Positions 9,861 to 39,816 of a DNA stretch of 42,339 bases are shown in pieces. Under the pieces are notes generated by a model. The model ran no database searches, was not told the origin of the DNA, and worked only from the letters and a program-made list of their open reading frames with translations. Position numbers and translations under genes: made by a program. Positions within the stretch are counted from its first letter, which is position 1, and every line of letters starts with the position of its first letter. The DNA is from a virus, in the IMG/VR virus record IMGVR_UViG_3300017728_000025, positions 1 through 42,339 of that record. One strand, 5' to 3'.

Positions 9861-9890
9861 GCAATAATTAAAACTATATTTAAATATTTT

Positions 9891-9898
9891 GATAAATA
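9891..9898 (+). promoter_or_regulatory. late promoter (GATAAATA) for gp25-gp6-giant gene
   Basis: GATAAATA ends 5 bases before the gp25 ATG. With T4 late geometry (octamer at -13 to -6), +1 is 9904, the A of the ATG, so the transcript would be leaderless. There is no Shine-Dalgarno to compete with this reading. Confidence 0.78.
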
Positions 9899-9903
9899 CT
9901 TAC

Positions 9904-10278
9904 ATGGCGACATTGTTTAAAGGATTCAGTACAATAGATAAAAAAAGGGCACCCTTTACCCTTACGGACACTGATCTTATCAAACGAGATTTGTTAAATC
10001 ATTTCTATACTAAAAAGGGAGAACGAATTATGCGACCTAATTTTGGTTGTATTATTTGGGATATGTTAATGGAACAAGACTCGCCGGCTTTACAAGAAGA
10101 GATAAGAGAAGATATAGAACGTATTGTTGAGTTAGATCCTAGAGTAACTTTAGAAAATACAATTTTATATATAAATGATCAAACTATAAGAGCTGAAGTA
10201 GTGTTAAAATATTACAATTTAGATCAAGCAGATACTTTATATTTAGAATTTAATAAAAGAAATGCAGAGGCAGAATAA
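9904..10278 (+). CDS. 25: gp25-like baseplate wedge subunit
   Basis: 124 aa from ATG 9904. A longer frame from 9889 would begin upstream of the late promoter, so ATG 9904 is preferred. It has the gp25/W family core: DTDLIKRDLLNHFYTKKGER, MRPNFGCIIWDMLME, then IREDIERIVELDPRV. The EPR motif of gp25 is kept as DPR. In T4, gp25 with gp6 and gp53 makes the inner baseplate and triggers sheath polymerisation. Length matches T4 gp25 (132 aa). Likely translated from a leaderless mRNA. Overlaps gp6 by one base as TAATG. Confidence 0.92.
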   Translation: MATLFKGFSTIDKKRAPFTLTDTDLIKRDLLNHFYTKKGERIMRPNFGCIIWDMLMEQDSPALQEEIREDIERIVELDPRVTLENTILYINDQTIRAEVVLKYYNLDQADTLYLEFNKRNAEAE

Positions 10279-13200: not shown

Positions 13201-14444
13201 ATAATTTCCACTTGTTTGCATCAGATACAACAGGTGCTATAAGTAGGGATAAAATTTTAGTAGAATACAAATCAGCCAAAGACAGATTAGATACTGATAT
13301 TGTTTATGAAATTTCAGACGTATTTAAATACTCAGATGGATATACAGATAATAGAAAAGTAAAAGTTGCACCAGTAGATTCTGATGGCGACTTAGTTCCT
13401 GATAAACCGTTCCAGTTTAATGAATTCGTATCAAGTACGGATCTTATAATATTTGAAAATTATACAGACTTTGATGGCTATGTATATGATAGACCGGTAA
13501 GTGGAGTAATTTTAGATTGGAGGGGAGAGACAGATTGGGATAATACAAGAGCCAGCGGAAACCCAGCGACTATATCTCCAATAAGTTATTCTGATCCAGT
13601 TGAATGGAGTACAGTAAATTATGTTATTGTGGATACATTAGCATTAGCAGAAAAGTTTGAAAACACAGCAGACCAATATTTTGGAATAAAAATTTATGTT
13701 GTTGAAAACGAAAAATTCTATGTAATGACAAGAAGTAGTACAAATTCTAATGCTATTAGTTTAGTAGAAACTGCTAATTGTTTTGTTAAAACAGGTAGGG
13801 GCAAAGATCAAAATACAAGACTACCTGATGTTAGGCCTTGTGTAATGAAATGGGACCATAAAGCACCTAACGATGTTAGAATAGATCCAAGTATAAGTAA
13901 CGTTGTTGAAATGTTAGTATTAACGAATGCTTACTATTCAGACATACAAAAATACATTAGTGTACCAGGTACAGCATACCCACTAGCACCTACTAGTGAT
14001 GAACTTGCAAACGAATTTCAAAATTTAGAGACATTTAAAAATGCTAGTGACACATTAGTTTATAGAAGTGCAAAATTTAAAAGATTGTTCGGTGCAGATG
14101 CAGACGAAAGTGTACAAGCAAAATTTAGAGTTGTTAAACTAGCAGGAACTACACTCAGTGATAATGAAATCAAAACAAAAGTAATACAATCATTTAACAG
14201 ATATTTTGATGTAAATAATTGGGAGTTCGGTGAAAATTTCTACTTTACTGAATTAAGCAGTTATGTACATCAGCAGTTAAGTGGTATTATAGGAAGTATA
14301 GTTATTGTACCTAAAATAAACTCAGGTAACTTTGGAGACTTATTCCAAATTAAAGCAGAAAGTAATGAATTCTTTGTTAGTACAGCAAAGGTTTCTGATG
14401 TTGAAATTATAGATAAAATTACTAAAACTACATTGGCTAATTAA
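10278..14444 (+). CDS. 6: gp6-like baseplate wedge subunit, enlarged
   Basis: 1388 aa, about twice T4 gp6 (660 aa). The first 130 residues are typical: YVRTNFPENFNDYIESSEF, LAFLSTSLAFRMDVN, ENFLETAERRDSVFKLARML and the GYNPKRNIPASG turn that opens the J-like domain. The next 300 residues hold baseplate-J type strands, including IRIKFPDGNFGNVPSGIFRV and QNRMVSAQDYNIFPL. The C-terminus (about 1275-1388) has the closing domain with LSDNEIKTKVIQSFNRYFD and ELSSYVHQQLSGIIGSIVIV. Between them lies a long strand-rich insert with two aspartate clusters (near 784 and 1032) like Ca-binding loops. gp6 forms the ring around the hub. GAGG at 10266-10269 is the ribosome site. The giant gene follows after 2 bases. 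Confidence 0.88.
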   Translation: MALVDRQNNLFAAEDWKVAYKAFSEVNFQAYDFDTMRTSLVEYVRTNFPENFNDYIESSEFIAIIELLAFLSTSLAFRMDVNTRENFLETAERRDSVFKLARMLGYNPKRNIPASGLMKVTAVKTNEPLQDSQGNDISNQNIFWDDANNPDSYEQFITVLNAAMGTTNRFSSPVKSGKVGGINTDQYTISTPITSPIAHSFNLNVNGVARSFEIVNADFFDGEYFYEKQPDPTNNLGFFYRNDGLGLSSNSTGFFLLFKQGQLAFEDFNYETPLQNRLQDIIKNNINETDVYIQEVNTQGIVQNQWTKIPNTVGQTLNYNSKALNTRNLYSIENLNNDGIRIKFPDGNFGNVPSGIFRVWHRVSDGERFTIHPDDTRNTSVNVPYVNADGESFTLTFTFGLENTVSNSLPAESLQNIKNRAPQTFYTQNRMVSAQDYNIFPLSQTSNILKLKATNRTHAGHSRYIDINDPTGTFQSVETYTEDGFLYKDDDPIAKEIIVSDNNTPAEVVDNTIVNFLKEQKLNNVIYDTLREKWSNFIPTKFQTDTLNIRWNPLPVATDSTTGYMTETFSSADTVVMVNNTESTKVFQENTFIKFVDTTNIANYKWVRVTGVQNNGALSSGLSTSIGPWTLSDNVNSNWRADEVIASLRKTFTNSEQTLIEDALKNKSTFGIGFDLTDQSYYVISNANLLKTGNLGIENAKDTTLSGKDNSWIMLFEYTPVDTTSYKYNVSIRGLSYVVQSANDLKFYNVKSVKVTDGTTQAVSDTITFNTLNYKPGVTETFVWSDSNDDGVAEAWQSLDNSAYYDPNGLRTNIALRTRDIKWFDVNVTWQSTFGLLRNDAVTDNHTPANIYALNRFVNAANVSLNPYFDDGNISTNNVTLSNNDGRISKLPNNLNFTFDNTTFGYNILDDNGDITYKQYNHNTGLTEIYHGNSSIYTYGIDGTTGNTSEVGRMFLSNANATAGTGTLTYDELDDNFHLFASDTTGAISRDKILVEYKSAKDRLDTDIVYEISDVFKYSDGYTDNRKVKVAPVDSDGDLVPDKPFQFNEFVSSTDLIIFENYTDFDGYVYDRPVSGVILDWRGETDWDNTRASGNPATISPISYSDPVEWSTVNYVIVDTLALAEKFENTADQYFGIKIYVVENEKFYVMTRSSTNSNAISLVETANCFVKTGRGKDQNTRLPDVRPCVMKWDHKAPNDVRIDPSISNVVEMLVLTNAYYSDIQKYISVPGTAYPLAPTSDELANEFQNLETFKNASDTLVYRSAKFKRLFGADADESVQAKFRVVKLAGTTLSDNEIKTKVIQSFNRYFDVNNWEFGENFYFTELSSYVHQQLSGIIGSIVIVPKINSGNFGDLFQIKAESNEFFVSTAKVSDVEIIDKITKTTLAN

Positions 14445-14446: not shown

Positions 14447-17400
14447 ATGGCAGATAAAATTTACAAAAAATTACCGGGCATCCTGCAAACAGACACAATC
14501 AAGAATTTCTTTGAAGGAACCGTTGAACAATTATACAGTAAAGCAAATGTAGAATCTGTAAGCGGATTTATTGGTAGGAAAACATCCATAGACCAGAAGG
14601 TAGACGGCACATGGATTTACGAAGAAGATAAAGATAAAGAATTTTATGGATTAACTCCAGTTGTAAATAGCACAAATGCAAATACCAGAGTCAGTGAGAA
14701 TTTTATATTTTACGATGAATTTGTTTCTACATTAAAAAATTACAATGTTGATTTATTAGATCATAACAAAATTTTAAAATCTAAATATCAAGCATTTTTA
14801 CCGCCCATAGAATATAACAAGTTTTTAAATTTCCAAGAATATTATTGGAGTACAACAGGACCAACAGCAATATCAATATCCGGTTCTTTAACTGACCCTA
14901 TTAATGTAGATAAAGATATTCTAGGCAAAAGAAATTATACGCCAAAAGACGGTAAAGCATTTAAAAATGGAATGAAAGTTTCCTTTACTGGTGACTATGT
15001 TATCAGTAATCCAACATACGTAGGAAAAGAATTTATTGTTGAGGGTGTTGGAGATAGTATAGTACTTGTACCTGTAGATGTAAGTTATGCCAACGGCATA
15101 GCCAACCCACAAACAAGTAAGGATTATGTTGTTTTAGGCAGAGGTTCTGCTAATAAAAATGTATGGAGTAGAGTTAATTTTTGGTATCATAAAGAAAACT
15201 TTATAGATGCAGGTGACGATATTCCTGCTAAAACACAACAAGCAGATAGACCTATATTAGAATTTAATAAAGATTTAGAATTATATAATGTAGGCTCAAC
15301 AAGTAAAGGGAATGTAGATGTTAGTTCAACATTATTGTACAGCGAAGTTGTTGGATTAGATGCTAGTAATGTTGATATAGATACTGTAACAATTGAATCA
15401 GGAACAACATTAATATTTCCTAATGATGATGCAAGTGTATCTGCTAACGTATATGTGGCAACAGTAGCCAATGCATCGCTTTCTAATGCAATTAGTTTAA
15501 GTGTTAGTACTACCCTAAGTAAAGGAGATACTGTATTTGTTTCCTCCGGTAGTTCAGAAATAGGTAAAGAATATCACTATAACACAAATGGCTTGAAACA
15601 ATCTCAAATTAAATCTAAATTAAATCAAGCACCATTATTTAATTTATACGATGACCAAAAACGTTATTTAGGTGATACAACAATTTTCCCAAACAATAAT
15701 TTTGAAGGTAATAAACTTTTCGGTTTTGAAGTAGGCACAGGAAATATTGATAAAATTTATAATTTGCCTTTAGCATATAGATCTTTTAAAAGTGCTAGTG
15801 AGATAAGTTTCGAAAACTTTATGTCTACAGAAACTTACACTAATATAGTTTTAGGTAGCAGTGAATCTACAGATATAAAAGGGTACTATTTTTATAAATT
15901 ATTAAAAACACAGTCAGAATATTACAACAACTTTAAAACTGTAGACGATTTTAGTGAACAAAGAATAGAAAGAAAATTTGATATTACAACTACTTTCTTA
16001 GATAGTTTTAGCGAAGAGTTTGAATTAGGATGTATTCCAAATGTGCTATCAACTACAGCAAGTGGATTTGATATTATTGTAAGGAAAAACGGAGACTTAT
16101 TTACTGACTTTACATACACATCTAACGATGATAAAATTTTAATTAAAAGAAAGAATTTTGCAGTAGGTGATATTTTTGAAACTTCATGTACATCAGATTC
16201 TTTAATAGATAGTACAGATAATATAAGTAAATTCACATTACCTCTAGCATGGGGAAATAATCCACTTAAAGAGGATATCACGAAGATATCAGAGCCAGAG
16301 TTTTTACCTCATTTTAGAAACTATATGGAAAGACAACCTGGATTTACCGGTGATGTTTTAAATAATAACAACTTTAGTGATTTAAGATTATATGATAATC
16401 TTGCAACAGATATAGTTAAAAGTAATAATGATTTAATTCTCGGTGCCTTCTTATTAGATGATCAACCACATAATATTGTAGATGCATTAAGATTTAACAG
16501 TAACGAATATAACAAATACAAAAAACGATTCTTTAAAGAACTAACAGATTATTATAATATTGTAGATTTTAATGAATTTACTAATGAAGAAATTTTAGAA
16601 AAAGTTTTAAGAAATTTAATTGCTTTTAGTGTAGGCAGGAATGTATTTGGACAAACTTACATATTACCTTTTGGCGATAATTACAATAAAGAAGTATTAA
16701 TAATAAATGACACAACGTTGTCTTCACATACTTTATCATCGTCCTTAGATTTAGATAAAGTAGAAAACAGTCTTTTAATTTATTATACAAGAAACAATGT
16801 TAAAACTTTAATGTCTATAGGTGAAGATTATACACTTACATATAGTCCACTTACAGTAACATTTAAAAATTATGTACCAGAGTTACTAGATGAATTAGAA
16901 TTTAAATTATATAATTCTAATAGGGATAGTGTTGAATGTCCTCCTACTCCTAGTACAATGGGATTATATAGACTTTATACTCCTGCAAAAATATCGGACG
17001 ATACTTTCCAAACACCACAGGAAGTTATATTAGGACACGACGGTAGTAAAACTCCAATTTTCAATGACGAAAGAGATGATATTGTACTAGAATTTGAAAA
17101 GAGGATTTATAACTCTGCAAAAGCAGAATTTAGAGAAAAGAACAGTATTCCAGATATAAACATTTTAAGAGCCAGACCAGGTGAATGGAGACAAGGAACA
17201 TTAATGGTAGACACATTCAACGATGTGCTACAAACTAGTTTTGAAAATTGGGTCATGGAAAATAAAGTAGACCCTATTGTAAACGAATTTTACGACAACA
17301 ATGATAAATGGACATGGAACTATAGAGGAACAACAGAAGAACCGGGACACTGGAGAGGCTGGTTCGAATACTATTACGATACAGTAAGACCTCATACACA

Positions 17401-20400
17401 TCCTTGGGAGATGTTAGGCTTTGTAGATAAGCCAACCTGGTGGGACGATCAGTACATAACAACTACCTATACAGACTATAGTAGTAATAATATTCCTATG
17501 TGGTCTGATCTTGAAAAAGGCATAATACGACAAGGAGATAGAGAAAACTTTGTAGATGGAAGTTTTGATGACCAGTTTAATCCTTATAGAAGAAGGGGTG
17601 CTGGTACTAGAGTTGACCTAATAGAAAAATGCCCTGTTGATAGTGATGGAAATTTAAAAACTCCTTACGAGATTACAACAACAGGAGTTTCCAGTTTCTC
17701 ACCAAGATGGAGCTCATCAGAGCCTAATACTTCACAAGGCTATAAAACAACAAGTTTTATTTCTGATGATGGTATTAATGTTCAGTTTGATGCAACTAAT
17801 AGATACATTACCAGTTATGGTATTCCAACATTTTCTAGAAGGTTTATAGATGAATCTGTCGAAAGACCTGAATGGGGTAATTTTAAATCCACTTACAGAA
17901 TTCCTAATAATATAGATTATAACACATTAGGTCCAGGCACTGAACATTCAATCGATCCTTTGTTAAAAGGAGCAAGTGCAATACTAGTAGGGGGTTTACC
18001 ATTATATAGTCCTATTGCTGATGCTTACGAAACTGATAACACTTGGGCATACAACTTAGGATTTTTAAATAAGAGCTCTAAAGAAAACGGAGACTTTGCA
18101 AATACAGATACAGATGGTAAAGTTTACTCAGTAACAATTACAAAAGAAATGAGTAATAGTACTGCATGGGGAAATTCAACAACACACTCTGGAATAGTAG
18201 GTTGGGCATTTGATGGTTTACCAATTTATGGACCATATGGTTACACTGATCCTATGGATAAGACTAGTGCAATCACAAATATTAAAAGTGCATTTACATT
18301 AAGATCAGGTAATAGAGCAACAGGGCCACAAGGAGCTCATACAGGAGAATTTGTACAAGACTATGTTTTAGATGCGTCTAAAAATGGCATTAACGGATAT
18401 GCAGACAGATGGAATACTAGATATGGATTTACGCCAGAGTCACCAAGTCAAGCAATAAGATATTATGTAGTTACCTTAGATGATAACGGTGACGACATGT
18501 TCCCTTACGCAGTAGGCGGTGGAACAAAAACATTTAATGGTTCTAACGTAGTATACGCAGGGCTATTCTATAATAACGTACAAGATATAGATACAAACTA
18601 TAACGGTACTGCACCTACAAATTCATCGGCAACTTATGCCAAAATCAGTGAACGTATTAATCGTATTACAGACGGTACAGGACAAGACAATCCATGGAGG
18701 TTCGGGGATAACGGGCCTGTAGAAAATGCTTGGAGATATAGTGAAAAATATCCATTTGCTGTTGTTGAAGCACTTTGCTTAACAAACCCAGGTGGATTTG
18801 CTACACAATTCAGTGACCCGACACAAATAATTAAGGCCCCAGCAGACAGAGATATATATGTAAATAAAGATACTAGAAAATCTTGGAGGTTCACAGAAGC
18901 AGATCATTTTAAAATTCATGGCGATATAGATGACAATGGCGAACTTGTTACAAATATAGGTTATACACAATTTATTAATAGTTGGATTAAATTCCAAGGA
19001 CTGAATGTAGTAACAGATTTTGCTGAAAAATTAAGAAATTTAAATGTAAAATTAGGTCATAGATTATCTGGATACATTGATAAAGATACAATGACAATGT
19101 CAATGGATCAATATAGTACCACAGGAAGTAGTACTAACCTAATTATCCCTCAGGAAAATATTACTGTAAACATTCATAACTCTCCTTATAAATCTAGAAA
19201 CATTTATCAAGGTGTAATTATACAAAAAACTACAACTGGTTATAAAGTAAAAGGTTATGATAAAAATTTAGGACACTTTAAAATTTTAGAAAGTGACACA
19301 ACCGGCAGATCAGAAAAAATACAAGTAGGCGGAGAGGCACATCCTTTTGTAGATTGGCAAGAAAGCACATCATATAATAAAGGCACTATTGTAAGATATA
19401 ATGAAGTATATTATGAGGCTAAAGAATACGTTCCTAAGTCCACAACATTTAATAATGTTTTTTATAAAAAACTAAACAAACTTCCTCAAATTAATTTTAA
19501 AGAGGGTGCAGTATATTTAGATACAACAGGAATTATAAAAAAAGTAGAATATGAAACTGTATATAGTACAGAACAAGAAGTATTTGATTTCTTAATATCT
19601 TTAGGAAGATACCAAAAGCATGTAGGTTATACCTTTGGTGAATATGATATTAGCATAAATGAAACAAGAGATTGGGTATACTCTGCAAAACAATTCTTGT
19701 TCTGGTTACAGGGTAATTGGCAAACAGATAATACATTAGAATTATCACCAATGGCATCTAAAATTACATTTGAATCAACTAAAGGTTTTGTTGCAAAAAT
19801 TAAACGTAATGAATTTAATATGTTTAACATTATGGACAAAGACGGTAAGTCTATAGATCCTAAAGAATGTGCAATTAATAGACAAGATTTAAGATTAGAA
19901 ATTATACCACCAGCAGGTAAAGAAATTTATGCAGTCTGTTTATTTGTAAGAGAAATAGAACATGCAATGGTATTTGACAATATTACAGAATTTGCTGATA
20001 CACTTTATAATCCTTTATACAATCAAAAACAAACAAGAATTAGATTAAAAGGAAATAGAACAGCAAACTGGGACGGTAGATTTATTAGTGAAGGGTTCTT
20101 GATTGAAGGAGATTCATTAAAGCCTAACTTAGATAACCTTGCAGAAAGCATGGGAAGATATCATGAATTAGGATTTGTACCAGTTGAACGACAAGTATAT
20201 AATACTGCTAGGAATTTATTTGGTTATCAAGAAAAAGATTACCTTGCAGAATTACAAATAGACGATGATCAACAATTTGAATTCTATAAAGGATTTATAC
20301 AGAATAAAGGTACAAAAACAAGTTTAAGTAGAATAGGAAGAAGTAGTGCTATTATACAAGGCAACATGGATGTATATGACGAGTGGGCAATTAAAGTTGG

Positions 20401-23400
20401 CTCGTTCGGTGATTTAGAAAACAATCAAAGTGTTGAATTAGCATTAGAGAAAAAAGATTTTGTACAGGACCCTCAATTATTTACATTGTCCTTCCCTGAA
20501 GATACAACAGGTGTTGTTGATAGAATAGATGTTTTAAACACAAAACATCAATACTTTGATGTACCTGAAGTAGTAATCACACAATCAACAGATGGTACTC
20601 AGGCAAAAGCAACAGCCGTACTGGATAATAATGGATTAATAAGTTCTATAAATGTTACTGAACAGGGAACAGGTTATACAGATACACCTGGTCTTACAAT
20701 TATTACTGGCGAATTAAGTGTAGGAAATATATCAACAAAATTAGCAAGTGTAAGTGCAAGATCCTCTGGCACCATCACATCGGTTACACAAAATACAAGC
20801 GGTAGTGTAATAAGCAGTAATATTTCAAATATTAATTCTTTAGGCACAATAACAATCGCAGATAACTTTGGTGCAACAGCATCCTTTAATTTAAGTTCTA
20901 TAACAGATGTAGCAAATATTACAACAGCGATTAATTCTGATGCAACAATTAATGCTAACATTACAGCATATACAATAGACAATTATATTTCTAATAATGG
21001 TAATGTAGTAATTAATAAAGGATTAAAAATATCTGGTAATGACTTTACTGTTGGAGGCCACTCACCTACATTAGCAAATCTAAATATTACTGCTGGAAGA
21101 TATCAGCCAAGACAGAGATATGCACTTAATGTTGCAAACAACACCCAAACTTCAGATATAGTAGTTTCAGTTGATAATTTAGCAGTAGCAAGTAACAAGT
21201 ATGTTTTTGATGCAGGAGATAGATGGCAAATTACAGCACCGTCTACAGTTTCAGGAAATAGTAGTATAAGTTATGTTTTAAATACAGGTGTAGTAAACGC
21301 AAATACATCGTTCCATAGTAACAACATTACAGAGTATGATGGTAATTATCCGTTTGTAGATGTTTACCTTAACGGTACAAAGATAGAAAATCCAGGTTAT
21401 GAAACAAGGTATCAAGTAGATAATACAACAACAATTACATTCCCAAATGTTGGCTTGTTACCTGATGAGCAAATTGTAGCAGGTTCAAATGTTTATATTG
21501 TTGAAAGAGCAACTATAGATTTAGAAGATGCATATCAAGGAGACTTACCTGGTAGTACTTTAAATGTAAAAGCAACTACTAATGATGACATAGCAGTACA
21601 TGTTAAGAGTGTAAGAATATATGAAATAACACCTGATGCAAAAGATGACGAAGTAATATTAATTGATATAGATGATACATCAAGATTCCTTAAGAAACCT
21701 AGCGGTGTTAGAGAAAGTAATTTATGGCCTAAAACAGGAAACGTAACATATCAAGGATTACAAGATAGTAAATACAATCCTTTGCCTAACGCAGGATATG
21801 TAAATGAAAAAGATGTAAACTTTAGTGCATTTGACCTAGGCGGTGTTACAGAATTATTTGGTAATAACATAAAATTCAAACCAACAGGTAATGATTTTAT
21901 CCATGTTGCTAAGAGTGAAAATTTAGACTGGAATGTTTATAAATTAAAACAAGCAAATAAAGGTAATGTAAATTTTGTTGAACAAGATGCAATTACAGAC
22001 ACAGCATATTTATATACAGAAAGAAGTCTATTTAATTATGTAGACAGCAACCAATTATTAGGTAATGATTTATCTAGGTATTTAGATTATGCATTAGTAG
22101 TTAAAAAAGCAGACATTACAGATGAGTTTGTTATATGGCAAAATGAAGATATTGTAAGAAGAAAATCTGTACAGATATCAAACTTTGGTAGAGCGAATAT
22201 GATCACTGCTAATATAGGCGCAATAGCACCTACAAGAGTAGTAAGTATTGCAAATATACAGCCAGCCATTAGTGCTTATACAAGTGCAGACGCAAATATT
22301 ATAGGCAGTAATACTATACAAATCTCCGGCTCACAAGGCACACTAGCAAACGGAGATACAGTTGAATTCTTTGTAAGCAGTATAACCGACAGATCATTTA
22401 CAACAAGTAATGTATCCTATGTAACAATTACTGATACTGCTAATTTAAAAAACACATCATTAGCAGATAGAACATTAAACTTTACAGAAAATGCTAGTTA
22501 TGAATTTGCAAACGTAAAATATACAGGTAATTCTCAAATAATACCTTTAGAAAGTTTAGAAATGGCAGTTTATAATGCTAATGCAGATAGTACAGTAAGT
22601 TATTTTAACAAAAGTAATATTATACTTCCAGCAACACATTTGCCTGCTACTAATACAAGTGTTACATTAACAACATTCCATACAGGTAAATTAAAACTTG
22701 GTGTTGCAAATATAAATTTACATGGTGCAGGTATTGTTGCCGCAAATAATGTTGTAAGATTATCAGCAACTAATACAACTTATAACAACGCATCGTTTAC
22801 AGTTACAGACGTAGATACTGCAAATAATACAATTACTATTGATATTGATATTTTCAATAAAAACATTGATCTTTCAGATGATTTTGACAATCAATTTTTA
22901 GAACCTGCAGAGTTAGGGATCACAGGATTTGTATTTGAAGAACAGTATCCTTTACATGCACAAAGACATACTATTAGTAATGTTAGTTTAACAGGATTTA
23001 CAGTTCAACAAGCAAACGTCACAGCAAATATAGATTCTGGAAATTTATCTTATGGTATTTTTGGTAAAACAGAGATTACTGCTACAGATCATGATTTAAC
23101 ATCTGGAGAATTAATTAAATTATCAGCAAATGCATACTCTGGATTCTATTATGTAGAAAGTGCAAGTAAAGATACATTTAAGATTGATGCACCTTATAAT
23201 TCAAGTATACCTGCAAGTGGAAATATTATTCCAGAAGGTATAACTATTACAACTGATACAGCACACGGTATAAACGTTTCTTATGCAGGTAAGAGAATTG
23301 CTGTTCATTTAGCAGAACCTAGATATTATAACCAAGTTTATACAGTAAGTGATGTAACTACTAATACTATTTTAGTTGAAAATGGTGCTTTTGCATTCTA

Positions 23401-26400
23401 TCCCTATTCAGTTGTACAGGAAAACGCAGTACTTACAACATTAGATCACGGTTCAATGACCCTCAACAATTCATTAATTAATATTAATAATGTAAACTCT
23501 CCAGAATCTATAAAAGAAGAATTTAATAGACAAATGGATTTGAGAAGAGGATTAATTGACGACAACGGCTTGACAATTCCAATGCTTAATAACATAGAAT
23601 GTAGTGAAAAAGTATATGCAGGAGTTCCCTCTACAGAAGTACAGGGTTCAGGTCCTTATGTACCGAGATCTCCTAATATGGAAGGTTTAGAACTTAAAGG
23701 TGTGATGCCTTTTGCTACAGAAGACGATTTAAAATATGGATTCCCAGGGGAAAATATAGATGACGTTGATATGATCACTGATCATAGAGCGAGGCCCGGC
23801 GATTGGCCACCATTTGGATTAAGAAATCCAAAAATTCCAGGTAAGAATACAGGTACGGTGCCATCAAATACACAAATTCCATTATACGATATTAAAGGCA
23901 GTGGCAAAAATAGACGTAGAGCAGACTATATTGGGGTTCCTATACTTGATCCTACTAAAGCATTTGCGGCTTTAGATGTTAAACAATGTGAAATTTGTGC
24001 ACCTGCACCGCCCCCAGTATCATCAAGTGTATCAAATGCTAATGGTAAAAGATATATTAATAAAAATTACGGCGGAACTATTACAGTAAGTGCTTCAGGC
24101 AATGGTAAAGGTAAAAGACCATGGCAAGGAACTTACTCAGGATATTATAAAACCACTGGACCTAAAAGAGGACAAGTTTCACAATTCGGTGGTAGTAAAC
24201 ACATGCCAGCAGATGCATTATTAGGCGCAATAACATGGGCTGATAATGGAAGTAGAAATACATTTAGTTTAAGTTGTACGTTTAGTGAAGCAGGAACTTT
24301 CTATGTACATGCATATTACTCTGCAAAAAATACCGGGGGATCGGCCTCAATTAGCATAAGTGGTGCGGCAAGTGGTAGTACTTCTCCAAAGCACTTAGGA
24401 AAAACAGATTCCAATTTTAGTGGTCCTGGTAGTGTAATACCGTTTACCGTAACAGCAGGACAAACAGTAACAATAAACGGAGTAGCACAATGGGGCAGTA
24501 ATCACTGGAACTCTGTTGGATTCCATTTAAGTACAAGAGCAGGTTCGTTAAGTACAACAGCAACAATAGAAGATCCTGCAACATCAACACCTACAGAAAC
24601 TGCAAATACTACTACAGGATCTTCCTTAGTACAAACTGAGTTTATAGAACAGTCAACAAGAGAATGGAAGAAAGGAAATGCTGGAAAAGACGATGAATGG
24701 TTGTTCAATCCTGGTGCAAGTGGAATAATAGAAATACTATTTGACATGTATAGCGGTGCAGACGGATTAGAAGTTTATCAAGGAGACCAAGTTACACAAT
24801 CATCCTTAATATCATCAACTCAACCACAAAATTTAAGTGTTCTATCAGAAGCAGAAAAAAGTGAAATATTAACAAATGCTAGAAAACCAGGTGCAGGACA
24901 AAATACTGGACAATCGGGTGTAATAAGAAATTATATAGAAAGTTCTATATCAGCACCAAATAATACAGGTGTAAAATACGGTGGTGCCTTAAGATTTAAT
25001 TTTAATAAAACTTCAGGCGACTATATAAAAATTAAAGTATATAAATCAAGTAGTGTTTATAGATTTGTATTAAAATACCCTAAAGTAGGCCCTAATATTC
25101 CTAATCCAGGAGTAAATCCGACCACAACAGGAGCATGTGATACAGCAAGTGACGGAAATACAACTGTCACTGGCAACAGTTTACCACAAACACCAATAAA
25201 TACACCAGTAGGTGGCGGTAGTAATACCGGAGGCGGAAACACTGGTGGTGGAAACACTGGTGGTGGTACTACTGGCGGCGGAGCCGGTGGCGGCGGTAGA
25301 CGTGGCGGCGGTGGCGGCGGAGGCGGCGGTGGCGGTGCCGTAAGAAGAGTTCAAGCACAAGCAAATAAAACGTATGGGCCTGTTTATACACCACCTCCTG
25401 TTGAAAAATTCCCTCAACCTTCACCTATAACACCTTATAAACCGGGATTCCCTATTGCTCCGATATCACCTTTACCTGTACAGGTGCCTTTCACTCCATT
25501 TATTACACCTAGTATAGTAGGAGGCGGAAATTTAATAACATCTAGTTGGCAAAAGGGCATAAAAAATATTAGAGCTGGCGGAAATAATCCTGGCGCATTT
25601 TTTAGTGCTAATTTTGGTGATGTAGGTTTGCCTAGTTTAGCAGGTTACAGATTTATACCAAATGTTTTAAGAAAAACAACAAAAATTACAAAAGCAAACA
25701 ACATTGGAAGGTTTATACCATTAGAAGGTAACCAGTATGTGAATACAACTATGCAAAAAGTAACCGGTGGTAAGAAAATACCATTGGCAACACCACTTGC
25801 AGAGAAGGTACCGTTTAAACCTAGTCCTTTAAGAGCAATAGACGTCAAAGAGTACAACTATAACTTTATAACAAAGTTAAATAATCCGTATTTTACAAAA
25901 TCTGGTAATGCTATTAGTTTCCAAGCACAAAAAATAGGTGGAGATCTTGTTTTACCTGACGGAAGTAGTATAAGAAATATACTTGGAGACGCAAGTGGTA
26001 TAAATGCAGACAACGTATTAATAAGATACCCAGGAAACGAATTAGTTGACTTTGTAAACCGAGGAGATAATCCTCCAACATACGATTATCTACCAGGTGA
26101 TACAACTATTCCAGACGAATTAGGACAACCTGATGTAGATAATATAGATTTCAATAGAGGAGGCGGATTCTCTATACAACCTTTACTAAGGACTCCAGAA
26201 GGTAATTACATTCCTGGTGGCCCACAAGTAGGATGTCACTTAACACAGCCTACACCTGGATTCAACATACCAATGGATAACATGACTGGTATAAAACCAG
26301 GCGATGAACTTATTATTAATAATAGAAAATATGTTTTCCCAGGCAGTGACCCTAAAGTTGTAAGAAATACTTTAATGTGCGGACCTGCTGGTAGCGGAAT

Positions 26401-29400
26401 CGAAGTTAAAGACACTAAAGTTAATGGTAAAGATGCTATAAGAATTAGTAGTTGTAGTGGTGCACCAATTATTATTAGAGATGGTTGTGCAGGCGGTGTT
26501 TATAAGGAAGTATTAGACTTTCATGTTGTAAGAGGTTTCGATCAAAGTGTAGTAGACACTAGTAACACATTAGTTTTACCAGCGATTTTCGGTACAGCAA
26601 ATACTGTTACAACAGCAAGTTATAATACTTACGGCCCACAGGGAGATAACACAGGTGTTGCTACAAGTGGTGGTTCAGATATAACAAGTGAGCAAGGCGT
26701 AGGTGCAATATTATCAAGTAGTTCAGTTAGTAAATCAACTGGAGGCAGTGGTTATGTTGTAGGAGATAGATTAAGACTAGTTGGAGGTACTCCAATAGCA
26801 GATCCTTACGGTAGTGTTACAGAAATCTGTATAGATGCACCAGGAGCCGGATATTCTGATACTGCAAATGTTGTAGTTTATATAGGAGACGGTAATACAC
26901 CTGGTAGTGGTGCTAAAGCAGGTAGTGTTATATTAGATGATGAAGGCGGAATTAAAACTATTCTAATGGTAACCGGCGGTGAAGGCTACGATGTAACTAA
27001 ACCACCTAAAGTAAGAATTATAGATTTAAATGACACTGGTTTAGTAATACCAGCATCGGCACATGCAAAAGTGGCTTCAGGAGATAGTGTACCTCCTAGA
27101 GTAGCAAAATTTGTTGTTACTAGTATAGATGCTGTAGGAACAATTACAAGTTTACAAATTATTGATAGGGGTATTTATAAAGTATTCCCAAGTGATTTAA
27201 CAATGGGTATTCCTTTAGAGTACGACTATGTTAATCTAGGAGATGAAACAGGTACAGATGCAGATGGTAATTTCTTCCAAGGAACAGGGTTAGGACAATT
27301 TGATCCATTAGCAGACGGCAAACGTTTAGGCTCACCAGGAGGATACGATCCGATTAATGACACATTAGGTGGCGGGTCAGGTGCTAGGGTGTTCTTAACA
27401 TCAAGAGAGATACCAGATTGCTCAGAAAAAGGAAATGCAAGAAGTCAGTTAGGTTTACCAGAAAGAGTTACAGAAATAAATATACCAGAAGATATTACAG
27501 CATGTTTTAATAACAATTTAGCAGGTCCTGGATATGATGAAGACTTATATTTAGAAACAGAGCCAGTAAACGATTGTATTACAGCAATTAAAATTAGACA
27601 TCCAGGTTTCGATGGTGTAAGATTAGATGAAAATGTTCCAGGATTCTTAGATAGAATAGGATTACCTAGAGGTGATTACAACCAAGACATGCTATGTATG
27701 GTATCAACAGTAATTACAAAATCTTTTGAACAAGATAGAGACAATAGTGTAGGTACAACAACTGGATTTGATATATTAGATGTAGACGGTTACGGTACAT
27801 CTGGATTTGCAACATCAGAAGCAACAACATTAGAGATTAATTGTGTAGATAATTTAAGAACAGACCCTAATAGTTTATTTGGTGTAGCAGGAAATACAGG
27901 CGGAGACGACTCGGCAAATAATGTTGGACTATCATTTACAACTGATTTATATCAATATGAATTAAGAAGATTAGATGGCGGCCCTGTTAATACGGTTAAC
28001 CTACAACAAAACTGTGATGTTTATTATTTAGAAAGTCATAGGTTTGCAAACACATCTGTTATAAGCAGTCACACTCATATAGATGATGGTAATGTATCTA
28101 TTGCAAATTATGATAAAGTTTGGATAGATGAATATGTTGATTCTGCTAATAGTATAAATGGCTGGGCATATATAGAAAACAATAGTCTAAAAAGATATCA
28201 TGAAAGTTTAGTTGATTCTAAATTTGTAAATAATACTATTATTTACGATTCAGAAACAGGTGAAAAAGATTGGGACCTTTACGAATATGATCCTTTTAAA
28301 GGTGTTATACCAGGATTTATAGACAAAGAGATAGACTTTGTAAGCGAAAGTGATCCGGTAGTTTATAATCAAGCAAGAACAAGATTTGGTAGCAAGGACG
28401 TTGGTAAAGTCTGGTGGGATACAAGTACAATAAGATACAGATGGTACGAACAAGGCTCTTCTAATAGAGAACGTTGGTTAAATTGGGGTAAGACATTCCC
28501 TGGTAGTAGTGTAACTTTATACGAATGGGTAGAAAGTAAATCACTACCTCAATCATATATTGGCACAGGCACGCCTAAAAATGCATTAGACTATGTAACA
28601 GAAACATTTAAAGATCCTGTAACAGGAGTAAACCAAACATGTTATTATTACTGGGTACAAAACAAACAAGAATTAGATAATCATGTTGCAACAGATTTAA
28701 ATAGACAATATTCAACATTTGAACTTGCAAGATTGTTAGCAGATCCAGTAGGTCAAGGATTGCCTTTGATTAGTTTTGTTAGTGATACATCGTTTGTACT
28801 TACAAATGCTAGTTCAATAATAAAAGAAGAAGATCAAAATTTACAGATTAATTTAAGTAGAAACTTAAATCCAATTGGGCAGAAACATGATGCTTGGAAA
28901 CTTCTCAGAGAAGGCGACAATAATAGTGTGATCCCAGAAGATTTAGGAAACAAATTAATAGATAGTTTATGTGGTAATGATGCTAGTGGTAAAAGTGTAC
29001 CAGACCCATTACTAAGTGAAGTAGAAAAATATGGTGTTGCATTTAGACCTAGACAATCTATGTTTAAAAATGTAAAAGATGCAAGAAGAGAACTAGCATA
29101 TAGTTTAAATGAAATACTTGCAGACATTAAATTAAATAGTGAATTCGTAAATTGGGACAAAGATTTACCAGCAAGTAGAACTTATATAGAAACAGTAAAT
29201 TGGTTTGACACTATAAGAGTAGACGCATTTAATAATAAAAAAATTAGATACGATAGTTCTTATAAACCTATTTTAAATGTTGGTAGTATTTCTGAACTTA
29301 CTGCTATTACAGGCTCTATCAAAGACGGTGCAATTATACAAGTACAGCCTAATGTAACAAGTAGATACGAACTTTGGAAATATGTTTCTAAGACAAATAC

Positions 29401-31153
29401 GTTCACACAAATTTCTATAGAAAATGAGACTGTAAAATTAAAAGATACAATATTTACAGACGAAACAAATACAACAATGCAAACTGAAATAAGATCATTA
29501 TTAATTGCATTAAGAAATAACGTATTTGTAAATTCTGTTAATTGGAACAAACTATTCTTTGCACTATTAAAATATTCAGCAGTTGAACAAGATCAATTAA
29601 ATTGGGCATTCAAATCAAGTTATATCTATATTGAAAAAGAAGAAGAAGATTTAGTTAAAGTAGACGGATTTAAAGTTGATAACTTTGATAAAGTATTAAA
29701 ATATTTTGAAGATGCAAAACCTTATACATCGAAAATAAGAGAATACAAAGACGGTAAGAGCCCTGCAAAAGAACTTATACAGTATACACAGATAAGTGAC
29801 TTTGATAAGCCACCATATCCTGATAGTGCGACTGGTAATGTCAGAATTCTGGATGACTTCTTGCAAGACGATTCTAATATTATACAAACAAATAATAATT
29901 ATGTCAAGTATTTTGGAGTTAGTGGTAATGCAGATGCAGACACACCTATAAGAAAAATAAAATCAACAATTAGGTTTGATAGAACTAATACTGTACTAAC
30001 TGATTTTGAACCATTAGCAAATGTAAATGCAGATTATACTAAAGCAGATATGAATACAAGTATAGCATCAAATATTGTAACATTGATGAACTTTGGCCAT
30101 ACACCGAATAGTAACACCGCAATAGCAAGTAATGTATATTATAGATATGCTGACCGAGTATTTAAATACGATACAGAAGTACAAGCACAATTTAAAGTAG
30201 ATCTTGATAGTTACTTTGGTGTTACTGATTCAGTTTCAAATGCAAACATTATTGGTAGTTCTGCAAATATACTTACAGCCATTAACGCAGGTAATTTAAA
30301 CAATACATTAGACTTAGTAAGTACTAAAGTAGGTGGTAAGTTTAGAGGAACATCTTTAGATGCAAATTTATTTACAAAAGTTGTTTCAGGCGCAAGTACA
30401 CAAGATTACCAAACACAATTTGGATTTGGTAGTGAGCCATTTGGTAAAGTAATATATGATAACCCTATAGAAGTAGATAACTATGTAGGTTCATTTACAG
30501 AATCAAGTACTTTAACAAAAGATAATATTGCATACGAAGGTTTTGATGGAGTAACATTCCAAAGAGTTGGTTACGGAGAACGTGTACCAGAAGAAATGGT
30601 ATTGTTTGATCCTTACGAAACTTTGATTATAAATGTTTTAACAAGTAATAAATTAGCAGGTAATAGTAGTTTAGCAAGTGCAAGTGCAAACGCATCAACA
30701 GTAGAATATCAAGTAACAATGGATTTATTTGGTAATACAGAATATATGAGAAAATTACAGGACGGTAGTGCAAATACACTACTAACTGCTAACTTACTGA
30801 TGTCAGATAATGAGATATCAGTTGCAAATGCAAATATATGTACTGAACCTTCAGCAACAGTAAATGGAGTTGTTTGGGTAGAGAGTGAAAGAATAGAATA
30901 CACAAGAATAGATTTAGCAAATAATAAGTTATCAGGATTGATTAGAGGTACAAGCGGTACAACTATACAAGATTGGTACAGCAATAATACTGTTATTGTT
31001 TGGGACGGAAGTGAATCGCAAATATTTAAAAACTTTGTAGACAATTCTGTAGATAGTAATGTATGGTTAGACAGTGGAGCAACTAGTTTAACAGATAAAG
31101 GTAATGTAAGTGGAAATACATCTGTAATGAACTTCTTACATAATCTTAAATAA
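14447..31153 (+). CDS. giant baseplate/tail protein at gp7 position (5568 aa)
   Basis: One uninterrupted 5568-codon frame, over five times T4 gp7 (1032 aa). The N-terminus (FFEGTVEQLYSKANVE, GFIGRKTS, then FLNFQEYYWSTTGP near residue 128-141) and a block near 966 (PGHWRGWFEYYYDTVRPHT, then HPWEMLGF) resemble the large baseplate protein that follows gp6 in marine T4-like phages. Visible parts: a YHYH-like domain (about 1120-1370), strand-rich repeats, a CEIC motif near 3181, a beta-sandwich-like part (about 3199-3366), a 42-residue Gly tract (3589-3630), a Pro-rich stretch (3647-3690), GxGY repeats (about 4095-4250), and a C-terminal ESERIEYTRI ... LSGLIRGTSGT module near 5485-5515 known from phage tail proteins. 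It probably replaces gp7 and perhaps gp8-gp10. No clear ribosome site. Confidence 0.75.
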   Translation: MADKIYKKLPGILQTDTIKNFFEGTVEQLYSKANVESVSGFIGRKTSIDQKVDGTWIYEEDKDKEFYGLTPVVNSTNANTRVSENFIFYDEFVSTLKNYNVDLLDHNKILKSKYQAFLPPIEYNKFLNFQEYYWSTTGPTAISISGSLTDPINVDKDILGKRNYTPKDGKAFKNGMKVSFTGDYVISNPTYVGKEFIVEGVGDSIVLVPVDVSYANGIANPQTSKDYVVLGRGSANKNVWSRVNFWYHKENFIDAGDDIPAKTQQADRPILEFNKDLELYNVGSTSKGNVDVSSTLLYSEVVGLDASNVDIDTVTIESGTTLIFPNDDASVSANVYVATVANASLSNAISLSVSTTLSKGDTVFVSSGSSEIGKEYHYNTNGLKQSQIKSKLNQAPLFNLYDDQKRYLGDTTIFPNNNFEGNKLFGFEVGTGNIDKIYNLPLAYRSFKSASEISFENFMSTETYTNIVLGSSESTDIKGYYFYKLLKTQSEYYNNFKTVDDFSEQRIERKFDITTTFLDSFSEEFELGCIPNVLSTTASGFDIIVRKNGDLFTDFTYTSNDDKILIKRKNFAVGDIFETSCTSDSLIDSTDNISKFTLPLAWGNNPLKEDITKISEPEFLPHFRNYMERQPGFTGDVLNNNNFSDLRLYDNLATDIVKSNNDLILGAFLLDDQPHNIVDALRFNSNEYNKYKKRFFKELTDYYNIVDFNEFTNEEILEKVLRNLIAFSVGRNVFGQTYILPFGDNYNKEVLIINDTTLSSHTLSSSLDLDKVENSLLIYYTRNNVKTLMSIGEDYTLTYSPLTVTFKNYVPELLDELEFKLYNSNRDSVECPPTPSTMGLYRLYTPAKISDDTFQTPQEVILGHDGSKTPIFNDERDDIVLEFEKRIYNSAKAEFREKNSIPDINILRARPGEWRQGTLMVDTFNDVLQTSFENWVMENKVDPIVNEFYDNNDKWTWNYRGTTEEPGHWRGWFEYYYDTVRPHTHPWEMLGFVDKPTWWDDQYITTTYTDYSSNNIPMWSDLEKGIIRQGDRENFVDGSFDDQFNPYRRRGAGTRVDLIEKCPVDSDGNLKTPYEITTTGVSSFSPRWSSSEPNTSQGYKTTSFISDDGINVQFDATNRYITSYGIPTFSRRFIDESVERPEWGNFKSTYRIPNNIDYNTLGPGTEHSIDPLLKGASAILVGGLPLYSPIADAYETDNTWAYNLGFLNKSSKENGDFANTDTDGKVYSVTITKEMSNSTAWGNSTTHSGIVGWAFDGLPIYGPYGYTDPMDKTSAITNIKSAFTLRSGNRATGPQGAHTGEFVQDYVLDASKNGINGYADRWNTRYGFTPESPSQAIRYYVVTLDDNGDDMFPYAVGGGTKTFNGSNVVYAGLFYNNVQDIDTNYNGTAPTNSSATYAKISERINRITDGTGQDNPWRFGDNGPVENAWRYSEKYPFAVVEALCLTNPGGFATQFSDPTQIIKAPADRDIYVNKDTRKSWRFTEADHFKIHGDIDDNGELVTNIGYTQFINSWIKFQGLNVVTDFAEKLRNLNVKLGHRLSGYIDKDTMTMSMDQYSTTGSSTNLIIPQENITVNIHNSPYKSRNIYQGVIIQKTTTGYKVKGYDKNLGHFKILESDTTGRSEKIQVGGEAHPFVDWQESTSYNKGTIVRYNEVYYEAKEYVPKSTTFNNVFYKKLNKLPQINFKEGAVYLDTTGIIKKVEYETVYSTEQEVFDFLISLGRYQKHVGYTFGEYDISINETRDWVYSAKQFLFWLQGNWQTDNTLELSPMASKITFESTKGFVAKIKRNEFNMFNIMDKDGKSIDPKECAINRQDLRLEIIPPAGKEIYAVCLFVREIEHAMVFDNITEFADTLYNPLYNQKQTRIRLKGNRTANWDGRFISEGFLIEGDSLKPNLDNLAESMGRYHELGFVPVERQVYNTARNLFGYQEKDYLAELQIDDDQQFEFYKGFIQNKGTKTSLSRIGRSSAIIQGNMDVYDEWAIKVGSFGDLENNQSVELALEKKDFVQDPQLFTLSFPEDTTGVVDRIDVLNTKHQYFDVPEVVITQSTDGTQAKATAVLDNNGLISSINVTEQGTGYTDTPGLTIITGELSVGNISTKLASVSARSSGTITSVTQNTSGSVISSNISNINSLGTITIADNFGATASFNLSSITDVANITTAINSDATINANITAYTIDNYISNNGNVVINKGLKISGNDFTVGGHSPTLANLNITAGRYQPRQRYALNVANNTQTSDIVVSVDNLAVASNKYVFDAGDRWQITAPSTVSGNSSISYVLNTGVVNANTSFHSNNITEYDGNYPFVDVYLNGTKIENPGYETRYQVDNTTTITFPNVGLLPDEQIVAGSNVYIVERATIDLEDAYQGDLPGSTLNVKATTNDDIAVHVKSVRIYEITPDAKDDEVILIDIDDTSRFLKKPSGVRESNLWPKTGNVTYQGLQDSKYNPLPNAGYVNEKDVNFSAFDLGGVTELFGNNIKFKPTGNDFIHVAKSENLDWNVYKLKQANKGNVNFVEQDAITDTAYLYTERSLFNYVDSNQLLGNDLSRYLDYALVVKKADITDEFVIWQNEDIVRRKSVQISNFGRANMITANIGAIAPTRVVSIANIQPAISAYTSADANIIGSNTIQISGSQGTLANGDTVEFFVSSITDRSFTTSNVSYVTITDTANLKNTSLADRTLNFTENASYEFANVKYTGNSQIIPLESLEMAVYNANADSTVSYFNKSNIILPATHLPATNTSVTLTTFHTGKLKLGVANINLHGAGIVAANNVVRLSATNTTYNNASFTVTDVDTANNTITIDIDIFNKNIDLSDDFDNQFLEPAELGITGFVFEEQYPLHAQRHTISNVSLTGFTVQQANVTANIDSGNLSYGIFGKTEITATDHDLTSGELIKLSANAYSGFYYVESASKDTFKIDAPYNSSIPASGNIIPEGITITTDTAHGINVSYAGKRIAVHLAEPRYYNQVYTVSDVTTNTILVENGAFAFYPYSVVQENAVLTTLDHGSMTLNNSLININNVNSPESIKEEFNRQMDLRRGLIDDNGLTIPMLNNIECSEKVYAGVPSTEVQGSGPYVPRSPNMEGLELKGVMPFATEDDLKYGFPGENIDDVDMITDHRARPGDWPPFGLRNPKIPGKNTGTVPSNTQIPLYDIKGSGKNRRRADYIGVPILDPTKAFAALDVKQCEICAPAPPPVSSSVSNANGKRYINKNYGGTITVSASGNGKGKRPWQGTYSGYYKTTGPKRGQVSQFGGSKHMPADALLGAITWADNGSRNTFSLSCTFSEAGTFYVHAYYSAKNTGGSASISISGAASGSTSPKHLGKTDSNFSGPGSVIPFTVTAGQTVTINGVAQWGSNHWNSVGFHLSTRAGSLSTTATIEDPATSTPTETANTTTGSSLVQTEFIEQSTREWKKGNAGKDDEWLFNPGASGIIEILFDMYSGADGLEVYQGDQVTQSSLISSTQPQNLSVLSEAEKSEILTNARKPGAGQNTGQSGVIRNYIESSISAPNNTGVKYGGALRFNFNKTSGDYIKIKVYKSSSVYRFVLKYPKVGPNIPNPGVNPTTTGACDTASDGNTTVTGNSLPQTPINTPVGGGSNTGGGNTGGGNTGGGTTGGGAGGGGRRGGGGGGGGGGGAVRRVQAQANKTYGPVYTPPPVEKFPQPSPITPYKPGFPIAPISPLPVQVPFTPFITPSIVGGGNLITSSWQKGIKNIRAGGNNPGAFFSANFGDVGLPSLAGYRFIPNVLRKTTKITKANNIGRFIPLEGNQYVNTTMQKVTGGKKIPLATPLAEKVPFKPSPLRAIDVKEYNYNFITKLNNPYFTKSGNAISFQAQKIGGDLVLPDGSSIRNILGDASGINADNVLIRYPGNELVDFVNRGDNPPTYDYLPGDTTIPDELGQPDVDNIDFNRGGGFSIQPLLRTPEGNYIPGGPQVGCHLTQPTPGFNIPMDNMTGIKPGDELIINNRKYVFPGSDPKVVRNTLMCGPAGSGIEVKDTKVNGKDAIRISSCSGAPIIIRDGCAGGVYKEVLDFHVVRGFDQSVVDTSNTLVLPAIFGTANTVTTASYNTYGPQGDNTGVATSGGSDITSEQGVGAILSSSSVSKSTGGSGYVVGDRLRLVGGTPIADPYGSVTEICIDAPGAGYSDTANVVVYIGDGNTPGSGAKAGSVILDDEGGIKTILMVTGGEGYDVTKPPKVRIIDLNDTGLVIPASAHAKVASGDSVPPRVAKFVVTSIDAVGTITSLQIIDRGIYKVFPSDLTMGIPLEYDYVNLGDETGTDADGNFFQGTGLGQFDPLADGKRLGSPGGYDPINDTLGGGSGARVFLTSREIPDCSEKGNARSQLGLPERVTEINIPEDITACFNNNLAGPGYDEDLYLETEPVNDCITAIKIRHPGFDGVRLDENVPGFLDRIGLPRGDYNQDMLCMVSTVITKSFEQDRDNSVGTTTGFDILDVDGYGTSGFATSEATTLEINCVDNLRTDPNSLFGVAGNTGGDDSANNVGLSFTTDLYQYELRRLDGGPVNTVNLQQNCDVYYLESHRFANTSVISSHTHIDDGNVSIANYDKVWIDEYVDSANSINGWAYIENNSLKRYHESLVDSKFVNNTIIYDSETGEKDWDLYEYDPFKGVIPGFIDKEIDFVSESDPVVYNQARTRFGSKDVGKVWWDTSTIRYRWYEQGSSNRERWLNWGKTFPGSSVTLYEWVESKSLPQSYIGTGTPKNALDYVTETFKDPVTGVNQTCYYYWVQNKQELDNHVATDLNRQYSTFELARLLADPVGQGLPLISFVSDTSFVLTNASSIIKEEDQNLQINLSRNLNPIGQKHDAWKLLREGDNNSVIPEDLGNKLIDSLCGNDASGKSVPDPLLSEVEKYGVAFRPRQSMFKNVKDARRELAYSLNEILADIKLNSEFVNWDKDLPASRTYIETVNWFDTIRVDAFNNKKIRYDSSYKPILNVGSISELTAITGSIKDGAIIQVQPNVTSRYELWKYVSKTNTFTQISIENETVKLKDTIFTDETNTTMQTEIRSLLIALRNNVFVNSVNWNKLFFALLKYSAVEQDQLNWAFKSSYIYIEKEEEDLVKVDGFKVDNFDKVLKYFEDAKPYTSKIREYKDGKSPAKELIQYTQISDFDKPPYPDSATGNVRILDDFLQDDSNIIQTNNNYVKYFGVSGNADADTPIRKIKSTIRFDRTNTVLTDFEPLANVNADYTKADMNTSIASNIVTLMNFGHTPNSNTAIASNVYYRYADRVFKYDTEVQAQFKVDLDSYFGVTDSVSNANIIGSSANILTAINAGNLNNTLDLVSTKVGGKFRGTSLDANLFTKVVSGASTQDYQTQFGFGSEPFGKVIYDNPIEVDNYVGSFTESSTLTKDNIAYEGFDGVTFQRVGYGERVPEEMVLFDPYETLIINVLTSNKLAGNSSLASASANASTVEYQVTMDLFGNTEYMRKLQDGSANTLLTANLLMSDNEISVANANICTEPSATVNGVVWVESERIEYTRIDLANNKLSGLIRGTSGTTIQDWYSNNTVIVWDGSESQIFKNFVDNSVDSNVWLDSGATSLTDKGNVSGNTSVMNFLHNLK
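17804..18556 (+). other. YHYH-like domain inside the giant protein
   Basis: Residues about 1120-1370 include GGLPLYSPIAD, TWAYNLGFL, then FDGLPIYGPYGY (D1256-Y1266) and RYGFTPESPSQAIRYYVVT followed by MFPYAVG. The DGxPIYGPxGY block and the later YxVT and PY elements are the hallmark of YHYH-family domains found in bacterial secreted proteins. Role in a tail protein unknown. Confidence 0.7.
25211..25336 (+). repeat. glycine-codon repeat tract (42 codons) in the giant gene
   Basis: Tandem GGGNT/GGGTT units grade into an uninterrupted run of 11 glycine codons (residues 3589-3630), followed by a proline-rich stretch. GGC and GGT codons make this the most GC-rich spot in an AT-rich gene. It looks like a flexible linker between the two halves of the protein, prone to slippage. 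Confidence 0.85.
26731..27200 (+). repeat. GxGY beta repeats in the giant protein
   Basis: Repeated units around GGSGYVVGD, APGAGYSDTANVVVYIG, TGGEGYDVTKPPKVRI and the weaker IDRGIYKVFP, each about 40-50 residues. A similar pair sits near residues 2045-2085 (HQYFDVPEVVI and EQGTGYTDTPGLTI). They look like a stacked beta module common in phage tail proteins. Confidence 0.6.
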
Positions 31154-31173
31154 ATATGTACTTAACTGATAGT

Positions 31174-31181
31174 GATAAATA
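31174..31181 (+). promoter_or_regulatory. late promoter (GATAAATA) after the giant gene
   Basis: GATAAATA lies in the gap after the giant gene. With T4 geometry +1 is 31187, the A of the second of two adjacent ATG codons (31184, 31187), so a leaderless mRNA is predicted. Confidence 0.75.
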
Positions 31182-31186
31182 GTATG

Positions 31187-31834
31187 ATGGAAGAGAGCAA
31201 AGACAAAATGAAAGAGCAAAAAGACTTAAAACCTAATGAACATGCCGGTGTAAATATGAACGGTCATATATTAATCAGAGATAAAGAAACCGGTGAGGAA
31301 TTAGTAAACAAAAGAAATGCTATTCACTATGGTAACATGGCTTACATAGTAGCGAATGCTCTTAACGGAACAGACAATGCAAGAGTGTATTACATGGGAT
31401 TTGGAAACGGTGGTACTAGTGTAGATACTACAGGTAAAATCATATACAAATCTCCTAGAGTAAGTGAAGCATTCCAATCTTCTGCAAGTTTATATAGTAG
31501 AACATACAAAAAGATTGTTGGTGGCTCCGGTGATTCAACAAACCAAATAGAAGTCATAACAGGAACATCTTATTCTGATATTAAGGTTACAGCAACTTTA
31601 AGTTATTCAGAGCCAGCAGACCAAGATCTTTTCGATACAAGTACAGATAACAACGGCTCTTATGTTTTTGATGAATTAGGACTTTTCAGTTACCCAACAG
31701 ATCCTTCGCCTAGCGACGGCAGTGACCCTATTGATACTAGTAGAATGTTGACTCATGTTGTATTTCATCCTGTACAAAAAGCACAGAATAGGGTTATAGA
31801 AATCATATATACTGTCAGAGTACAATTAAGTTAG
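31187..31834 (+). CDS. virion structural protein, conserved in marine T4-like phages
   Basis: 215 aa from ATG 31187, the codon that matches the predicted transcript start; ATG 31184 or GTG 31172 would lengthen it by 1 or 5 residues. The N-terminal 30 residues are charged and helical. The core starts GHILIRDKETGEELVNKRNA then IHYGNMAYIVANAL, MGFGNGGTSV, and ends with strands (HVVFHPVQKAQNRVIEIIYT). This pattern is familiar from structural proteins of cyanophages but has no T4 name that I can assign. Lying between the giant baseplate gene and the tail fibre, it may join fibres to the baseplate, like T4 gp9; that is inference from position only. Confidence 0.6.
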   Translation: MEESKDKMKEQKDLKPNEHAGVNMNGHILIRDKETGEELVNKRNAIHYGNMAYIVANALNGTDNARVYYMGFGNGGTSVDTTGKIIYKSPRVSEAFQSSASLYSRTYKKIVGGSGDSTNQIEVITGTSYSDIKVTATLSYSEPADQDLFDTSTDNNGSYVFDELGLFSYPTDPSPSDGSDPIDTSRMLTHVVFHPVQKAQNRVIEIIYTVRVQLS

Positions 31835-37894: not shown

Positions 37895-37916
37895 GATAAG
37901 GATCAATTATATATTA

Positions 37917-38138: not shown

Positions 38139-38292
38139 TTTAGGAGACAAAATAGAGCATACTTGTAGACTCAATGGAAAGTTTGAGGGTAAAGTTATAG
38201 AACTATTGGCTATGCAATTCATATATGAAACTAAAGAAGGTCACCATAGGCATTGCCTTTTTAGAGAAGATTGGAAATATAAAACAAAATGA
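38104..38292 (+). CDS. small conserved-type protein, unknown function
   Basis: 62 aa from ATG 38104; a start at 38083 is possible but less likely because it lies deeper in the previous gene. The sequence is basic, with SLGDKIEHTCRLNGKFEGKV and MQFIYETKEGHHRHCLFRED, which looks like a small SH3-type beta barrel, as in many tiny phage proteins. Overlaps the DUF1289 gene and the next gene (ATGA), so it is co-translated. No function assigned. Confidence 0.65.
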   Translation: MSIKGKSKKAPSLGDKIEHTCRLNGKFEGKVIELLAMQFIYETKEGHHRHCLFREDWKYKTK

Positions 38293-39795: not shown

Positions 39796-39816
39796 AAAAT
39801 ACACAGGACGACACAT

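Follow-up and report, generated by a model that had tools for sequence, protein, structure and literature searches.

The giant ORF at positions 14447..31153 (plus strand) of the virus record IMGVR_UViG_3300017728_000025 probably encodes a baseplate wedge protein at the gp7 position of the baseplate operon, composed of a scaffold (blocks N, M and C, see below) with inserted surface modules, in a clade of jumbo myoviruses that is uncultured and mostly marine. The stretch analyzed, referred to as the window, comprises the entire record (42,339 nt) and is apparently a fragment, the rest of the genome lying outside view. The product (5568 aa, 613 kDa, pI 4.9) is striking and its ORF is genuine, yet it represents an enlarged new member of an already known kind of protein: on the basis of profile comparisons we assign it to phrog_10938, the family of giant virion proteins known from jumbo myoviruses. 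Its enlargement appears to consist of big inserted modules and not of a fusion of other known baseplate parts. The gp7-position wedge protein would be a site at which large exchangeable modules are added in jumbo phages, as they are in T4-like cyanophages.

Integrity of the giant ORF

The ORF starts with ATG and runs for 5568 codons to a single, terminal stop, taking up 39.5% of the window; the uninterrupted 16.7-kb frame covering about 40% of the DNA, on which the original prediction was based, is therefore real. From the base composition, ~460 stops would be expected over this length, and the other two forward frames contain 506 and 748. In relatives with 77–80% identity the giant is intact as one ORF (5613 and 5645 aa), as it also is in more distant relatives of ~42–50% identity (5487–7227 aa). 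The comparison with the nearest full-length relative yielded dN 0.127 and dS 0.949, with a low ratio in every 400-codon block, i.e. the gene is under purifying selection. Since the frame is open, intact in relatives and shows low dN/dS, we regard it as a functional gene and not as an assembly artefact. In one relative (L013, 7877-15844) the giant is interrupted, leaving ORFs of 1394 and 1252 aa, but its frame is open throughout in L014, which is similar in this stretch; the break may be either an assembly error or real.

Family assignment and genomic neighborhood

The three thirds of the protein matched phrog_10938, annotated as a virion structural protein, with E-values of 4.7e-199, 7e-57 and 2e-73. 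Characterized relatives are 3.3–4.6 kaa long and exhibit the same N, M and C blocks (PA5oct gp355, 3857 aa; Atu_ph07 gp180, 4449 aa; Phosso, 4555 aa; SCTP-2 gp140, 3807 aa; CBB_236; PBECO4 gp538, 3333 aa), with 23–39% identity to the window giant in the core blocks. These are virion proteins: the record of PA5oct gp355 carries an ESI-MS/MS mark, and CBB_236 was detected in virions by mass spectrometry (21 peptides, 7.7% coverage; PMC5259590).

Analysis of the genomic neighborhood revealed a gp25-like baseplate wedge gene (9889..10278, plus strand) directly upstream of a gene for a gp6-like baseplate wedge protein of 1388 aa (10278..14444, plus strand; phrog_10646, E-value 0; phrog_219, the T4 gp6 family, E-value 1e-19), with the giant directly 3' of both, which agrees with the position after gp6 originally predicted. 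The complete order is SbcC/SbcD and a late sigma factor (minus strand), a structural protein, gp53, a structural protein, gp5, gp25, gp6, the giant, a 220-aa protein and a fiber-like protein. Pseudomonas phage PA5oct has almost this order, and Atu_ph07, Phosso, CBB and PBECO4 have a similar one; the phrog_10938 proteins of jumbo phages follow gp25-gp6 and lie before or near a phrog_11259 gene, SCTP-2 being the exception with respect to gp6. In the window the phrog_11259 member is the conserved 220-aa partner (31172..31834, plus strand); this gene adjoins the giant in most relatives, and the PA5oct homologue of its product is marked ESI-MS/MS. It is followed by a gene for a 716-aa tail-fiber-like protein (31844..33994, plus strand), of which the first 82 aa resemble PA5oct gp358 (annotated as T4-like gp10) and the last ~140 aa resemble PA5oct gp359, as if two adjacent fiber genes had recombined.

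Because of the gene order, the conservation and the presence of orthologues in virions, we propose that blocks N, M and C probably form a wedge scaffold beside gp6 and gp25.

Core blocks, inserts and predicted folds

The alignment of 20 proteins delineated a core present in all jumbo-phage relatives (residues 1–1076, 1400–2090 and 4560–5130, with weaker conservation to ~5550) and inserts confined to the window's group (residues 1077–1400 and 2091–4559). In comparison with the phrog_10938 proteins of jumbo phages, the window giant adds a YHYH-containing insert and, separating block M from block C, a further ~2470 residues; in total the clade has probably inserted ~2800 residues of extra modules between the blocks.

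Block N (residues 1–1076; 14447..17674, plus strand) begins with the signature LPxxxQT...FFxxTVEQL...GYIG, followed by beta-rich domains. Block M (residues 1400–2090; 18644..20716, plus strand) contains a CBM5/12-like domain (residues 1637–1666; 19355-19444, plus strand), with a match in 38 of 43 relatives, and a FYxxxIxxKGTxxSL helix-turn-helix (20282-20326, plus strand). Block C (28124..31150, plus strand) is conserved over residues 4560–5130 and more weakly over residues 5131–5568, with an RGTxGT-type module at its end.

The AlphaFold models of residues 1–1080 (pLDDT 82) and 1400–2090 (pLDDT 76) were both searched against the PDB. Foldseek reported no match below an E-value of 0.001 for the models of blocks N and M, and in PDB sequence searches with these blocks CBM5/12 proteins were the only relevant matches; the BFVD search with block N placed jumbo-phage and uncultured-phage homologues at the top of the list. 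Solved relatives were limited to the CBM domain and to a small beta domain (residues 744–825; 16676..16921, plus strand), of types found in phage fibers, spikes and baseplates. The latter domain, of the type seen in fiber-anchoring and baseplate proteins, matched the P1 baseplate (Z 9.8), CBA120 TSP4 (Z 8.8), the N-terminus of T7 gp17 (Z 8.7) and T4 gp10 (Z 6.0), and is present in the window's clade and in some other relatives.

The first clade-specific insert (17675..18643, plus strand) carries a YHYH domain (PF14240) also known from giant structural proteins of cyanophages (Pfam match at 17969-18481, 65.6 bits against a cut-off of 25). This domain has been predicted to be a tail-associated metal-dependent hydrolase, with the His pair of the YHYH motif as the proposed metal site (PMC7824862). 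The pair is missing in the window copy, which retains HSGIVGWAFDGLPIYGPYGY, and in its nearest relatives, so the activity of the window copy is doubtful; in two other relatives (G010 and G005) the His pair is present, as FHYH.

The second insert (residues 2091–4559, ~2470 aa; 20717..28123, plus strand) has GxGYT beta-repeat modules near both edges and differs in content between relatives. It includes a Gly-rich linker (residues 3588–3630; 25208..25336, plus strand) that overlaps 9-15-bp tandem repeats; a DNA pattern search for the Gly repeats returned nothing. In relatives, PA14/GLEYA lectin-like or Big_9 Ig domains sit inside this long insert (L027, aa 1752–1864; L064:11969-19999, aa 2137–2247; L055:12154-19998, aa 967–1053). 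A flexible linker in so large a protein would also suit a polyprotein cleaved after its synthesis into several virion proteins; we consider this highly improbable, as neither the Pfam nor the PHROG scan found a protease domain and CBB_236 is listed as a single structural protein (PMC5259590).

Judging from the types of modules, the inserts are probably sugar-binding and may be exposed on the surface. The long insert, with its beta repeats and flexible Gly-rich linker where relatives have lectin-like or Ig domains, and the YHYH-containing insert most likely project from the baseplate rim as exchangeable surface modules, which would touch the host envelope and bind its sugars, or dock fibers. 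The modules of carbohydrate-binding type, the beta repeats, the Gly-rich linker and the domain of fiber-anchor type would also fit an adhesin or fiber-like virion protein attached to the wedge without being its scaffold, the true gp7 equivalent being another gene, and the fact that the SCTP-2 giant does not adjoin gp6 points in the same direction. Nonetheless, we find such an arrangement unlikely: conservation of the core blocks extends to every part of the group (the block N and M profiles comprise 81–98 sequences each) while the modules vary, the giant immediately follows gp6 in nearly all cases, and no other gp7 candidates were seen between gp53 and the fiber genes. In Salicola phage SCTP-2 (L022) a long distance separates the giant from the gp6-like gene, and a different protein, of 3096 aa, is encoded ahead of the giant.

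Relationship to T4 gp7

The wedge-scaffold reading implies equivalence to T4 gp7, whose gene likewise lies immediately downstream of gp6, and at 1032 aa this protein is indeed more than five times shorter than the giant, as originally stated. The PHROG scan reported no match of the giant to the gp7 family phrog_964, and hhalign comparisons with gp7, carried out with shallow profiles, gave probabilities of ~0 except in the KGT segment, where they reached no more than 10.7%. The latter value corresponds to a likeness also visible by eye between T4 gp7 DFYSTKGIEASYKFLF and the giant FYKGFIQNKGTKTSL; it is above that of other slices and not significant. T4 gp7 is absent among the PDB matches listed for the models of residues 1–1080 and 1400–2090. 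With no significant match in sequence or fold, the equivalence to gp7 is positional only; on the other hand, the failure to show homology is inconclusive, because the profiles were shallow and only two parts of the protein were modeled. We found no solved baseplate of this group of jumbo phages. A rather doubtful guess is that one wedge-core domain of gp7 type could have been split into two halves ~1900 residues apart, namely the LPxxxQT helix at the N-terminus and the pair of KGT helices around residue 1950, with the remaining chain looped out as an extra host-sensing layer of the baseplate.

Relationship to gp8–gp12

The original prediction held that one chain may have merged several peripheral baseplate parts, i.e. 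that it replaces gp7 together with several of gp8, gp9, gp10, gp11 and gp12. Indeed, none of gp8–gp12 is recognizable around the giant within the window, which is a fragment of the genome, and these genes may be encoded elsewhere, beyond it. The resemblance of the beta domain 744–825 to one in T4 gp10 and the fact that the gp8 profile catches ~70-residue repeat modules within several giants could also be taken in favor of a merger. However, the gp8 match is confined to the repeat module (profile positions ~186–280 of 478), which recurs in other proteins too, and the 744–825 fold is widespread among fiber adaptors. The profile searches with slices against T4 gp7–gp12 proposed along with the prediction yielded no significant match, the core slices showing none to gp8–gp12, and when insert slices were compared by HMM search with the ORFs encoded in loci of T4, cyanophages and jumbo phages, other giants were the only matches and no separate gene was among them. 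Moreover, complete jumbo-phage relatives with a giant of 3.3–3.9 kaa, which lack the insert, likewise have no recognizable gp8 gene, so that the absence of these genes is not correlated with the added length, and in PA5oct a domain similar to the gp10 C-terminus is encoded by a separate downstream gene. With neither slice matches nor a recognizable gp8 gene in the insert-less relatives, the fusion is not supported and we consider it very unlikely.

In profile-profile comparisons of core slices with T4 gp7–gp12 and cyanophage gp7/gp8, repeat and CBM-like modules were the sole matches. The products of the downstream genes (220, 716 and 339 aa) did not match gp7–gp12.

Comparison with cyanophages

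In T4-like cyanophages the protein after gp6 is also giant (3335–6167 aa; e.g. P-SSM2, 5195 aa; S-CAM8, 6167 aa; MED4-213, 4458 aa; ACG-2014f, 4225 aa), and in one record, that of ACG-2014f, it is annotated as a "baseplate wedge initiator". Since these phages too have a protein of 3.3–6.2 kaa after gp6, the occurrence of giants at the gp7 position was already known. The cyanophage proteins share with the window giant the place after gp25-gp6, a similar size, the YHYH domain and the GxGYT beta repeats; profile comparisons detected no similarity between the core blocks, the YHYH and GxGYT repeat modules being the only shared parts detected. The prediction that the giant starts like the protein after gp6 in marine T4-like phages was thus not upheld, as its N-terminus resembles the jumbo-phage proteins and is not detectably cyanophage-like. 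Three of the cyanophages checked retain a separate full-length gp8 gene. VrlC has been reported to replace gp7 in cyano- and pelagimyophages (PMC7029224); like VrlC, to which we liken it by description only, the window giant would stand in for gp7 in the baseplate.

Distribution and clade of the window

Relatives of block M are encoded by 505 IMG/VR stretches. In the gp6 tree, inferred by a quick method and showing long branches, the window falls within a supported clade (31 rows, SH-aLRT 100) in which complete giants are 5038–7227 aa long. The window thereby defines a clade of jumbo myoviruses, with forms of 5.0–7.2 kaa, that allows the core to be distinguished from the insert. At least one other form above 5000 aa (L156, 5216 aa) is on a separate branch of this tree, hence great length either evolved repeatedly or has been lost in places. 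If the giant is present in six copies, as may be expected of a wedge protein, it would weigh ~3.7 MDa per virion, and any tail structure of these phages must therefore account for it.

Other features of the loci

Within the baseplate operon of the window, the minus strand carries a gene (9218-9826) with weak similarity to esterases/lipases. In another locus (L017, 3862-7975) the gp6-like gene is split into two overlapping ORFs. Downstream of the fiber gene (window 35465-42339), several genes appear, on visual inspection, to encode enzymes of sugar-modifying or radical-SAM type; a Pfam scan of some of them did not confirm this impression for those scanned. Radical SAM genes are found in a similar place in Atu_ph07 and Phosso.
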